Positions 10,347 to 34,442 of a stretch of 64,000 nucleotides of DNA are shown piece after piece. The notes under the pieces are model-generated. The model ran no database searches. It was not told the origin of the DNA and saw nothing but the letters and a program-made list of their open reading frames with translations. The stretch is from Cytophagaceae bacterium. GTDB taxonomy: Bacteria > Bacteroidota > Bacteroidia > Cytophagales > Flexibacteraceae. Both the position numbers and the translations under genes were made by a program. Location of the stretch: assembly GCA_947458545.1 (NCBI GenBank), contig CANGYH010000001.1:124001-188000 (forward strand), read 5' to 3'. Numbering within the stretch: position 1 is the first letter of the stretch; every line of letters begins with the position of its first letter.

Positions 10347-10389
10347 GAGAGAGTTGAGAGTTGAAAGTTGAAAGTTGAAAGTTGAGAGT
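10347..10389. repeat. Heptanucleotide tandem array (GTTGARA)n
   Basis: About five units of GTTGAGA/GTTGAAA with a 7-nt period, directly upstream of the rluA-like promoter box. A second array of the same heptamer lies upstream of valS (21695-21730), and a decayed copy in the opposite orientation overlaps the stop of the gene ending at 11414. It resembles the short tandemly repeated heptamers known in other bacterial genomes. Confidence 0.8.
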
Positions 10390-10390
10390 G

Positions 10391-11280
10391 GGGGGCTGGT
10401 CCCGGTCTCCCCTTGCGCTGGTCCCGGTCTCCAGACCGGGACCCACCCACGGAAGGCGCTGCGGTCTCCAGACCGCTCAAACGGAGGGCGTTGGGTGTGG
10501 AACGTCAGCTACGGAGCCGCCCCCGGATGGGCCAGCCCCAGGTTAGGGCCAGCCCCAGGTTGGGGCCGCCCCAGGGTTTGGGCCACCCCAGGCTAAAGCC
10601 GTGGGGCTACTAGGATAGCGACGGCTGAAGGCGCCCGCATTCGTCCCCTGCCGCTGGCGCAAGGCTGCGCCTTGTGCCCATAATGTTCCGCCGTTGCACG
10701 GCGGCGCCGAAGGCGAAGGACGTCCCATCCGCATAACCAGCCTACGTACCTGGTCCCGGTTTGCAACCGGGACCCACCCAAGGTTGCCGGTTTGCAACCG
10801 GCCAGAACGGCAAACGTGATGTAGGGGCGGACCCGCGTGTCCGCCCGCCTGCGGATGGCTTTGGGATTGGAGATAAGTTCATTGGTTTATCCGGGCTACG
10901 GCTGGCCCGCCCCAGGCTGAAGCCGTGGGGCTATCGCGAAGTGTCTGCTCTTTTGGCGACGGCTAAATCCAAACGCTTTTTGTCTCTCATTTACAGGTAG
11001 TTGCAATGGTTTTTTGCCGGGCGATGTCGGGCTGGTTGTCGTGTATTGCGGCAGTCTGAAGACTGCGCTGCAATGGGCGTCACAAGTCATCGCTCCCCTA
11101 ATCGGGTCACTAAAGACTTGCGACAGGTTGGGCCTTGTTTGTGCCGTTGCGCTGGGTTTGCGGTAGGGAGGTATGCAGGGCTGGAGCCCTACAAGTGAGG
11201 GTTACGAGGGCTGGAGCCCTCGAACAGCATCCTAGCAGGATGCCGCAGGCTTGAAAGCGTTCGGCTTTAGCCGTCGCCTT
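10391..11280. repeat. Hairpin-dense intergenic block
   Basis: This is the non-coding interval between the rluA-like gene and the T9SS gene; I see no credible gene in it. It contains at least eleven short hairpins with 2-6 nt loops. Stems with tight loops include 10420-10443 (GGTCCCGGTCT arm, 11 bp), 10461-10476, 10656-10678, 10688-10704, 10752-10774, 10786-10802, 10825-10846, 11051-11066, 11177-11190, 11205-11222 and 11227-11243. Two related longer units with CCCCAGGCT arms lie at 10586-10606 and 10909-10931. Each stem has a different sequence, but cores recur (TCTCCAGA, TTTGCAA, GCTGAAGC, GCTGGAGC). The rest of the interval up to 11413 holds nothing recognisable. Confidence 0.8.
11077..11126. 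repeat. Dispersed 50-bp repeat, copy A
   Basis: The unit begins GCGTCACAAGTC and ends GACTTGCGACAG; these ends form an imperfect 11-bp inverted repeat. It matches 46 of 50 positions of the copy at 34347-34396. Both copies are preceded by CAATG and by a small GTCT-NN-AGAC hairpin, so the repeated module is really about 75 bp. Confidence 0.85.
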
Positions 11281-11413
11281 AGCAGTAGCCCGAGGTTTTT
11301 AACATGGGGTGAACACGACGAACCCACGGCTCGCGCATTGCCCCAGCGGCCCAACCCAACCACCAATGTCTTAACGGTCAGGAGACCGAAACCAGCGCCC
11401 AACTATCAACTTT

Positions 11414-13255
11414 TCAACCTCCCACCGCCAACCTAGCCGTTTGGCCCGCTCTACGCAGCAGATACAGGCCAGGAGCAAGCCCCTGCGGCAGGCGGTAGAG
11501 GCCCTGGCAATCTTGAGTCATCGTGCCTAGGCACTGGCCCTGCAGGTTGAGCAGCGATGCCGGGGCCGCCTTGCCGGGCCAGCGCAGGCTTGCCCCTGCC
11601 GGGGCCGGGTTGGGGTATGGGGCCGAGAGCACCTGCTCTAGCTGGCGGGCAGACATGGGCCGCTGGCCCTGGGGCAGGCGCAGGCCTGCCAACAGCGTGT
11701 TGGTTTGATAGGAGCGCTGAAGGGTTGCACCGGTGCCGAAGCGTGCTTCAGGTAGAGGAGGTTGGTTGGGAGCGGCTCCTCCTGTCACAAGCAACATAGG
11801 TCCCATCACGGTTCCGTGAAAGGGCATACCGGTCGATCCCCCGTCTGCGACGGCCCACTTGATGCGCGTGGCCTGGGCATTTGTGGCAACAATAATGACT
11901 TGATTGTAAGGCTGGTTTGTGTCGCTGCATACGGTATCCGGCCCCAGGGGTCTGCAAGGCTCATCGATGCGTTGGGCCCTTGCCCAGTAAAGCAGCGAGT
12001 CAGGCGGGTTGGATAGGTCTGCAAGCTGGTTGAAGTAGAAAGATATAGGTAGGTTAGCCCAGCCGGAGGCTGAGTCGAAGCGAAGGATCGGATGCACGTT
12101 GTGCCAGCGCCCGGCAGAGTCTCGCTCGGCCATGTAGGCTAGCTCGGCTCGGCTGTTTTGCCTGCGGATGACAGGCACCCCCTCCAGGGCAATCGAGTCG
12201 CGTGAGCGGATCAAATAGCGCCGCCTGCCTGCCATATCTGTGATGGGGGTTAGCTTGGGAAAATCTCCCATACTTGTTGGAGGCCAGTTTTCTAGTCTGG
12301 CCTCCCAGCGGCCTACCGTATCTACGCTTGCCCAAAAAAAGCTCGGATTGGGAAAGCTACGAATTGTCATCTGGCCCAACCTGCGGCTGCCCCACACGTA
12401 TCCCGTCATGCTTAGCCTGCCATCGCTGCCAACGGCCAGGTCTCGAAAGCTCCCGTATCCATTAGAGTTAGTGGCGCTTGGGGGGGCTTCGACAAATGTA
12501 TATGCCCGGTCCACCTGTCCATCAGGCAGGCGAACATGAAACAAGGCAGTGCCAAGGCTATCGGGCGGTAACTGAAAAGGCGTAAAGATGGATGTCCAAT
12601 CCAGGTTGGAGTAGGAGCAGGTGGCCCAAAAGCCTGAGGCGGTCGTTGGCGAAGTATCGAAGCTGGAATTATCCATGCTAACAGAGCCTATTTGTCTGAC
12701 CCATCGGCAAGTACCGGTCGAGTCAAAGCGGATGATGGATGGTATCCAGCCTCGGTACTGTTGCCCTTGGTAGGTGATGGGATGGTTACCGAATAGGAAC
12801 TGGCCATCGTAGCGGGCAGAGTCTGATGTGGAGGCTGTCAGGACGACACCTCCATGCCCATCGTGTTGCAGCGTGATACCCCACCAGAGCTTGCCGTAGT
12901 CGCTGAAACGAGGCGTTGCCACCAGCACCTGGTGCCAGAGCATGCGGCCATCATGAGCTATGTGCAGCAGGTAGATGCCCCCCGGGCGGCTATTGTCGAT
13001 GGGTAGCCCGGGCAAAGAAGCGCCGACCCGCACAAAAAGAGATACGTAGGCCCCGCCCTGCCCATCCGAGCATTGGGCCATTAGCTCCTCCTGGGGCTCA
13101 CTGTCTATGGGTGGGGGTAACTGCTGGTTTGCCAGCCGCCCTACCCGGTAGCCATATAGGAAGGCCGGGGGCAGGTAGGATTGAGCAGCTGCAGTAAAGC
13201 AGCATCCGGCCAGGGTGCAACAAAGCAAGGAAAATCGGACAAAAAAAGCAGGCAT
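11414..13255 (-). CDS. Secreted protein with T9SS type A sorting domain
   Basis: 613 aa. The signal peptide spans residues 1-24 (hydrophobic, ending AAAQS). The long middle region has repeated WxR/F-D-S strands and phrases such as FDSTGTCRWVRQIG and LRFDSASGW, suggesting a beta-propeller-like fold of unknown function. The last ~75 residues have T9SS CTD features: the PYPNPAPAG motif, then LNLQGQCLG and the final GLYLLRRAGQTARLAVGG. It should cross the outer membrane by type IX secretion and be surface-attached or released. It is monocistronic on the minus strand, and the TGA stop lies in a decayed GTTGARA array. The biochemical role is unknown. Confidence 0.85.
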   Translation of the reverse strand: MPAFFVRFSLLCCTLAGCCFTAAAQSYLPPAFLYGYRVGRLANQQLPPPIDSEPQEELMAQCSDGQGGAYVSLFVRVGASLPGLPIDNSRPGGIYLLHIAHDGRMLWHQVLVATPRFSDYGKLWWGITLQHDGHGGVVLTASTSDSARYDGQFLFGNHPITYQGQQYRGWIPSIIRFDSTGTCRWVRQIGSVSMDNSSFDTSPTTASGFWATCSYSNLDWTSIFTPFQLPPDSLGTALFHVRLPDGQVDRAYTFVEAPPSATNSNGYGSFRDLAVGSDGRLSMTGYVWGSRRLGQMTIRSFPNPSFFWASVDTVGRWEARLENWPPTSMGDFPKLTPITDMAGRRRYLIRSRDSIALEGVPVIRRQNSRAELAYMAERDSAGRWHNVHPILRFDSASGWANLPISFYFNQLADLSNPPDSLLYWARAQRIDEPCRPLGPDTVCSDTNQPYNQVIIVATNAQATRIKWAVADGGSTGMPFHGTVMGPMLLVTGGAAPNQPPLPEARFGTGATLQRSYQTNTLLAGLRLPQGQRPMSARQLEQVLSAPYPNPAPAGASLRWPGKAAPASLLNLQGQCLGTMTQDCQGLYRLPQGLAPGLYLLRRAGQTARLAVGG

Positions 13256-21694: not shown

Positions 21695-21730
21695 GTTGGG
21701 AGTTGAGAGTTGAAAGTTGAGAGTTGAAAG
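21695..21730. repeat. Heptanucleotide tandem array (GTTGRRA)n upstream of valS
   Basis: Five 7-nt units (GTTGGGA, GTTGAGA, GTTGAAA, GTTGAGA, GTTGAAA). Same heptamer, strand and position relative to a minus-strand promoter as the array at 10347-10389. The spacing to the promoter box is 25 nt here but about 2 nt there. Confidence 0.8.
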
Positions 21731-21793
21731 TAGGGCTGATTGCTGCTAATCTGCAGTTGCTTCAGTTGACCAGGTCTGTTGCCTTGGCCAAGA

Positions 21794-21845
21794 GCGAGGC
21801 ACAGCCTCGCCAGAGCACGTGACAAGGGCAATGGCAAGGCCATTG
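21794..21845. repeat. Two short perfect hairpins
   Basis: GCGAGGC-ACA-GCCTCGC at 21794-21810 and CAATGGC-AAG-GCCATTG at 21829-21845. Both have 7-bp stems with 3-nt loops, the same construction as the stems in the 10.4-11.3 kb block. They lie in the 505-nt interval between valS and the NlpC gene; apart from the weak small frame listed next, the interval holds nothing else. Confidence 0.65.
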
Positions 21846-21852
21846 CACGGAG

Positions 21853-22062
21853 TTAGGGGGCCAAGCCTTTGGACGGTAGAGTGGAGGCAGGTCTGCTGCC
21901 CTGTCGTACATAATCACCAGCTGGTGGCCATTTCAATGTAGAACATCCTTCCAAGGCTACTTTATCTCGCCAGGGGTAAAATGCTTTGCGATAGGCTTTT
22001 ACGGTAGTTTCTATTTTTGCCAAATTGTTAAATACTTCGCGCAATGGTTGAATATCTGACAT
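21853..22062 (-). CDS. Small open frame, doubtful gene
   Basis: 69 codons beginning MSDIQPLREVFNNLAKIETT. The first ~35 residues look protein-like (amphipathic helix, AT-rich codons) and the C-terminal half is unstructured, Pro/Ser rich and probably non-coding in origin. No -7 box precedes it on the minus strand; a good plus-strand promoter overlaps its upstream side instead. It may be a remnant of a longer gene. Listed only because the interval is otherwise empty. Confidence 0.2.
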   Translation of the reverse strand: MSDIQPLREVFNNLAKIETTVKAYRKAFYPWRDKVALEGCSTLKWPPAGDYVRQGSRPASTLPSKGLAP

Positions 22063-34297: not shown

Positions 34298-34346
34298 TTC
34301 GTTTTAGCAGAATAGCATCGAGCGTCTAAAGACTCTACCACAATGA

Positions 34347-34442
34347 GCGTCACAAGTCACCGCTCCCTTAATCGGGTCGCTAAAGATTTGCGACAGTTTG
34401 CGTCACCGCTCCCCTGATCGGGTCGCTAAAGACTTGCGACAG
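34347..34442. repeat. Dispersed 50-bp repeat, copies B1 and B2 in tandem
   Basis: B1 (34347-34396) matches copy A (11077-11126) at 46 of 50 positions. B2 (34400-34442) is the same unit with 7 nt (ACAAGTC) deleted near its start. A small GTCT-AA-AGAC hairpin precedes B1 as in copy A. The array fills the convergent gap between the 88-aa gene and the methyltransferase gene. Confidence 0.85.

Follow-up and report, generated by a model that had tools for sequence, protein, structure and literature searches.

A hairpin block upstream of rluD in a Cytophagaceae genome as a probable BIME-like island of several REP families

A dense block of tight-loop hairpins upstream of rluD in a Cytophagaceae bacterium is very probably a BIME-like island composed of several REP families, several of which bracket RAYT or IS200-type TnpA genes elsewhere in the same genome. 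The window, that is, the whole stretch of DNA analysed, comprises 64,000 nucleotides, and the block was first drawn at its positions 10391-11280. The usual Bacteroidota RAYT unit consists of two tight-loop hairpins, one longer than the other, that share an inner core; two such twin units lie inverted around a RAYT gene, and units without a gene are dispersed. What was observed is the excess of hairpins, their dispersal, the cognate flanks, the inverted pairs, the order of nesting and the covariation of hairpin cores with RAYT sequences.

A count of perfect, non-overlapping stems (6 bp or longer, loop 2-6 nt) gave twelve in 10391-11280, in keeping with the earlier note, which had claimed at least eleven tight stems in about 0.9 kb, while 200 dinucleotide-Markov shuffles of the block gave 1.47 +/- 1.19 such stems, with a maximum of 5. 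Nine stems in the block reach at least 7 bp, against 0.41 expected from the shuffles. Per 1-kb bin, seven tight-loop stems fall at 10-11 kb and four at 11-12 kb (one of these four lies inside the next gene, beyond the block), and each remaining bin of the window holds at most two. The recurring cores that had been described are indeed present: TCTCCAGA at 10420-10443 and 10461-10476, TTTGCAA at 10752-10774 and 10786-10802, GCTGGAGC at 11175-11192 and 11204-11222, and GCTGAAGC at 10910-10934. The full block is slightly wider than first drawn, about 10349-11418, and is bounded by the start of rluD (10331, minus strand; product with PseudoU_synth_2 and S4 domains) and by the 3' end of the gene next to it (11414, minus strand), which is 613 aa long and has no Pfam match. 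The absence of a credible gene was also rightly noted, as the ORFs inside the block measure at most 84 aa and overlap each other and the hairpins. From left to right, the block contains the following parts:

10349..10389, plus strand: heptamer array (GTTGAAA/GTTGAGA)n, outermost left shell 'h'; right partner at 11398-11418
10395..10496, plus strand: family A twin unit, with long hairpin GGTCCCGGTCTCCAGACCGGGACC at 10420-10443 and short hairpin GCGGTCTCCAGACCGC at 10461-10476; RAYT L002 has the same twin on both sides
10579..10640, plus strand: family B/b unit, left shell, CCCCAGGCTAAAGCCGTGGGGCTAC and GCGACGGCTGAAGG, the GTAG foot of CCCCAGGCTAAAGCCGTGGGGCTAC being on the minus strand; also brackets the IS200-type gene L001
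10657..10708, plus strand: family J/j hairpins GGCGCAAGGCTGCGCC and CCGCCGTTGCACGGCGG; copies in L043 and L061
10752..10802, plus strand: family T/t twin GGTCCCGGTTTGCAACCGGGACC and GCCGGTTTGCAACCGGC, family A outer arms with a different core
10821..10846, plus strand: family C, canonical GTAG-footed REP GTAGGGGCGGACCCGCGTGTCCGCCC; 8 copies in the own genome
10903..10980, plus strand: second B/b unit
11046..11134, plus strand: family F/f, GCAGTCTGAAGACTGC at 11051-11066 and GTCACAAGTC...GACTTGCGAC at 11081-11124; also stand-alone at several genome sites, 93-94% identical
11175..11222, plus strand: family G/g twin GCAGGGCTGGAGCCCTAC and CGAGGGCTGGAGCCCTCG; RAYT L008 has the same twin on both sides
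11227..11243, no strand assigned: hairpin GCATCCTAGCAGGATGC, carrying no family assignment, in a stretch that differs from island to island
11253..11311, minus strand: B/b unit, right shell, mirroring 10579-10640 (59 nt at 73%, pair I1; 25 nt at 92%, pair I4); outer hairpin partly decayed
11354..11398, minus strand: decayed family A remnant, right shell, mirroring 10395-10496 (inverted pairs I3 and I5)
11398..11418, minus strand: heptamer-like remnant, outermost right shell, overlapping the 3' end of the neighbouring gene; mirror match of 33 nt at 85% (I2)

These parts are not confined to the block. The own genome comprises 3.23 Mb in 9 contigs; copies were counted over all of it by pattern search, and island maps were drawn from the genome stretches around matches. 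A nucleotide search placed block pieces at about three dozen further genome sites, with 68-100% identity depending on the piece. The 12-mer GGTCTCCAGACC, the family A core, has 41 genome copies, against 1 for its reversed control, and these are frequently paired, 37-38 bp apart. The arm pair GGTCCCGGT...CCGGGACC occurs in 25 genome copies around differing cores (TCTCCAGA, TCTCTGA, TTTGCAA and others), and thus different cores are carried on constant arms. The block hairpins are short, intergenic palindromes with many dispersed copies, as in REP and BIME elements. Heptamer arrays (GTTGAAA)n edge many of the islands and face inward where both sides have one.

The dispersal also bears on the possibility of a structured RNA raised in the earlier note, in this case a regulatory RNA or an array of terminators whose target would be rluD or the gene on the other side. 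The block does lie immediately upstream of where rluD starts, and its fold is strong (DNA folding energy z = -5.4, relative to 20 shuffles only). Nevertheless, no Rfam family matched the window at the gathering score, the same pieces are found near many unrelated genes in all three neighbour-gene arrangements (15 same-strand, 9 divergent and 6 convergent), and the block is missing at rluD in each of ten genomes from the same family; no plasmid records were found for rluD. Being a mosaic of dispersed parts, the block is very improbable as a regulatory RNA; it may still have a secondary effect on transcripts. A BIME-like island explains a dense hairpin cluster that could otherwise be mistaken for structured RNA.

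The own genome encodes eight Y1-transposase genes, namely seven RAYTs, which exceed the cut-off of model NF047646, and one IS200/IS605 TnpA (L001), which is above that of NF033573. The catalytic residues H64 and H66 (H-hydrophobic-H, the HUH motif) and Y147 are invariant among six aligned RAYTs, and the best solved-structure relative is TnpA-REP 4er8. Most Y1 genes are flanked on both sides by their own twin hairpins in inverted orientation, and in the majority of twins the inner core is common to both stems, the outer stem being different. RAYT L002 is bracketed by GGTCCCGGTCTCTGACCGGGACC and GCAGGTCTCCAGACCTGC, which is family A of the block, RAYT L008 by GCAGGGCTCCAGCCCTGC and CGAGGGCTCCAGCCCTCG, which is family G of the block, and RAYT L007 by CAATGGCTGTGCCATTG and GCGAGGCTGAGCCTCGC, which is family E/e, as found at 21794-21846; for A, G and E/e, the hairpins are therefore shared with RAYT gene flanks, a hallmark of REP and BIME elements. 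Three further twins bracket L004, L005 and L006, inverted B/b units bracket the IS200-type L001, and L003 has GTAG-footed hairpins like family D that can be made out clearly on just one flank. The stems thus occur genome-wide and their families match the flanks of RAYT and IS200-type genes, which supports the suggestion made earlier of several small palindrome families gathered in one insertion-tolerant spot. Integron attC hairpins, or another array of sites for recombination, would also bring many tight-loop hairpins of diverse sequence together in one place, but the ORF listing contains no cassette genes between the hairpins of the block and the hairpins match Y1 transposase gene flanks, making such an array extremely improbable.

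The families differ in their feet and in their partners. A GTAG foot is found in C, D and I, as well as in B, where it lies on the minus strand, and A, E and G have no regular GTAG foot; some variants of the family B core retain pairing (GGCT/AGCC, GGTT/AACC, AGACT/AGTCT). Families T, C, F, J and I had no cognate transposase identified in the own genome. B/b is assigned to L001 on the basis of one locus (G000:C1:1637335-1640667), where the nearest GTAG-footed B/b unit is 22 nt from the stop codon; it could be a REPtron-like arrangement, or the gene could have landed by chance inside a B pair. Short C-terminal RAYT remnants, with 24-30 aa matched, were observed at G000:C6:79940-80029 and G000:C1:1642569-1642643, and they are possibly leftovers of RAYTs whose orphan hairpins persist.

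The same arrangement is found in other Bacteroidota. A scan with the alignment of the six RAYTs returned 80 loci, 78 of them with enough flank, and at 60 of these 78 the flanks are mutually inverted above the 99th percentile of control places. Each 400-bp flank holds on average 3.1 stems upstream and 2.6 downstream, compared with 0.6 in controls. When these loci and six own loci were compared, a 4-nt core was common to adjacent stems in 61 of 159 cases, against 7.9% between loci, and a core was common to the upstream and downstream flanks at 57 of 67 loci, against 10.9 after shuffling (maximum 18). The hairpin core varies together with the RAYT sequence (Mantel r = 0.42, exceeding all 5000 permutations) and nearest RAYT neighbours have the same core in 31 of 57 cases (8.1 expected). 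This correlation stems partly from the common descent of close loci; it is expected of co-inheritance and is not in itself proof of recognition. The commonest 5' trinucleotide of the long hairpins is GCT (31 of 169, at 84 RAYT loci), and it is a possible foot motif replacing GTAG in Bacteroidota RAYT flanks (loci L089-L168). Across other Bacteroidota contigs that carry a RAYT (1.3 Mb in total), no multi-family islands were recognised, and few hairpin clusters lie away from a RAYT.

Within the own genome, the islands are concentric. Island L044 reads h> <e E> D> I> B> b> F> f> G> g> <b <B <I <D E> e>, and island L062 reads <e E> D> I> B> b> <g <G <b <B <I <D E> e>. Among 27 islands with at least six units each, 55 of 60 shell-pair comparisons are nested (null mean 50%, maximum 75%), these comparisons not being independent because the islands are homologous to one another, and all 48 of 48 pairs show inward polarity. 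The same inward polarity is seen at transposase genes for A, B, D and e (maps L046, L067 and L075, and L001). Up to about five mirrored layers occur, four of which match hairpins near transposase genes of the own genome. The outer stack of the window block is a different one: from the left come heptamer array, A and B, an asymmetric interior follows, and the right side has B, then decayed A, then a heptamer remnant. Aligned with each other, the outer arms of the block are collinear with a score of 104.5, compared with at most 67 in 500 shuffles and at most 70 at 62 other places of the window.

A HUH single-strand transposase such as a RAYT would, by analogy with known systems, recognise the folded single strand of its own hairpins, cut them, and move and spread them, and gene-free inverted pairs would represent the non-autonomous form. 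The pair of one family could then enter, or replace, the interior of an older pair in insertion-tolerant gaps, and we infer, as the simplest account, that nesting came about through such successive insertion; the composites would afterwards have been copied and reshuffled by recombination. We put forward, tentatively and as one possibility, that the layers of an island record a series of RAYT invasions, every new twin pair having entered, or been exchanged into, an older interior, with RAYT specificity evolving by a switch of the core while the outer arms were kept. If that were true, the order of nesting would be the order of family activity.

The nested order could instead have arisen once, in a single MITE-like composite with long terminal inverted repeats (heptamer-E-D-I-B around F-G) that was amplified whole by one transposase, the hairpins being no more than components of it. 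The order is the same in many islands, and mean arm likeness between islands (0.61) is nearly that within an island (0.66), values which do not separate insertion from copying. However, the window block, L055 and L061 have another outer stack, with family A, slots hold C or D in the same context (C, GTAGGGGCGGACCC..., occupies the place that D, TGTAGGCCAGGGCG..., takes in other arms), and families are also found alone or around their own transposase genes. A single composite is accordingly doubtful as the origin of the nesting; it is compatible with the BIME-like explanation as a route by which stacks were later multiplied. A whole arm could also have been copied across by fold-back template switching at a hairpin, an inverted duplication to which L051, L062 and L044 lend some weight, as their two arms, including spacers, are 0.90-0.97 identical. 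In most islands, though, the own opposite arm is not the best match, the left and right arms of L065, L068 and L063 have different slots, and the hairpins at transposase loci are already inverted where no island is present, so this origin is unlikely. Neither an empty site nor a target duplication was found for the islands.

As for distribution, a search of 59 genomes for the islands (the own genome included, the relatives all belonging to other genera) found one other genome, G002, with a match, which is 25 nt long and may be of the heptamer-array kind; given this single match, the islands look lineage-specific. Family C is different in this respect. Of 295 other genomes sampled from the phylum, 3 carry it, and most lack it; two of the three (G066 and G061), from another taxonomic family, have it nearly identical and in 14-15 copies. 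This patchy distribution suggests that family C spread horizontally. The RAYT-like loci of the two C-rich genomes have no C hairpin within about 1.5 kb.

Earlier work has established RAYTs with their cognate REPs, REPs in inverted pairs, and mosaic islands (PMC2817692, PMC3116915, PMC3733652), and RAYT/REP pairs and "atypical" structures at the RAYT genes of Bacteroidetes were likewise known (PMC6006769). Quentin et al. (2018) describe TnpA_REP (RAYT) subclass 2.6, mostly from Bacteroidetes, as flanked by "atypical secondary structures" that have no GT[AG]G and occur in copies elsewhere in the host genome (PMC6006769). The RAYTs studied here are similar, with flanking structures that in families A, E and G lack a regular GTAG foot, and with copies elsewhere. 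The six aligned RAYTs resemble this subclass and carry its published motifs in part only: WQ is present in 6/6, NH[LIV]H as NH[LI]H in 4/6 (SH[LI]H in 2/6), and YIH[QN]NP as YIHQNP in 2/6 (YIHDNP, YIHENP or YLHDNP in 4/6). In contrast to that description, the structures are resolved here as shared-core twins, inverted about the gene and with a core that covaries with the RAYT, and multi-family concentric islands, of which the text consulted has no description (PMC6006769), are seen.

The hairpins described here share with canonical GTAG REPs, REPINs and BIMEs their short intergenic palindromes, high copy number, inverted pairs, mosaic islands and a cognate RAYT, but differ from canonical GTAG REPs in that A, E and G, unlike B, C, D and I, lack a regular GTAG foot, and from canonical REPs and BIMEs in that several unrelated families are nested in a fixed order within one island. 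Di Nocera et al. (2013) described TIRYT transposase genes bracketed by double-palindromic terminal repeats, as well as Anabaena variabilis GTAG-15 dimers inside long palindromes (PMC3733652). As in those systems, double palindromes bracket transposase genes and one repeat pair is found inside another palindrome, whereas two layers are present there and up to about five mirrored layers here. No earlier description of the shared-core twin unit, of core switching on fixed arms or of ordered multi-family nesting was found in the open-licence literature, and one may exist elsewhere. How REPs spread is still an open question and Bacteroidota REPs are little known; one genome with seven RAYTs, distinct cognate twins and about three dozen nested islands offers ready enzyme/substrate pairs for studying whether the core or the arm is recognised, and relative ages might be deduced from the nested record of the islands.

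Two further hairpin sites lie in the window:

21702..21910, no strand assigned: small second island, with heptamer array (21702-21729), E hairpin (21794-21810), e hairpin (21828-21846) and degenerate family D unit (21888-21910)
34345..34435, plus strand: two family f units in tandem

The earlier note had pointed to two stems at 21794-21845 similar to those of the block. Both stems are present, as the E and e hairpins cognate to RAYT L007, and are of a different family.
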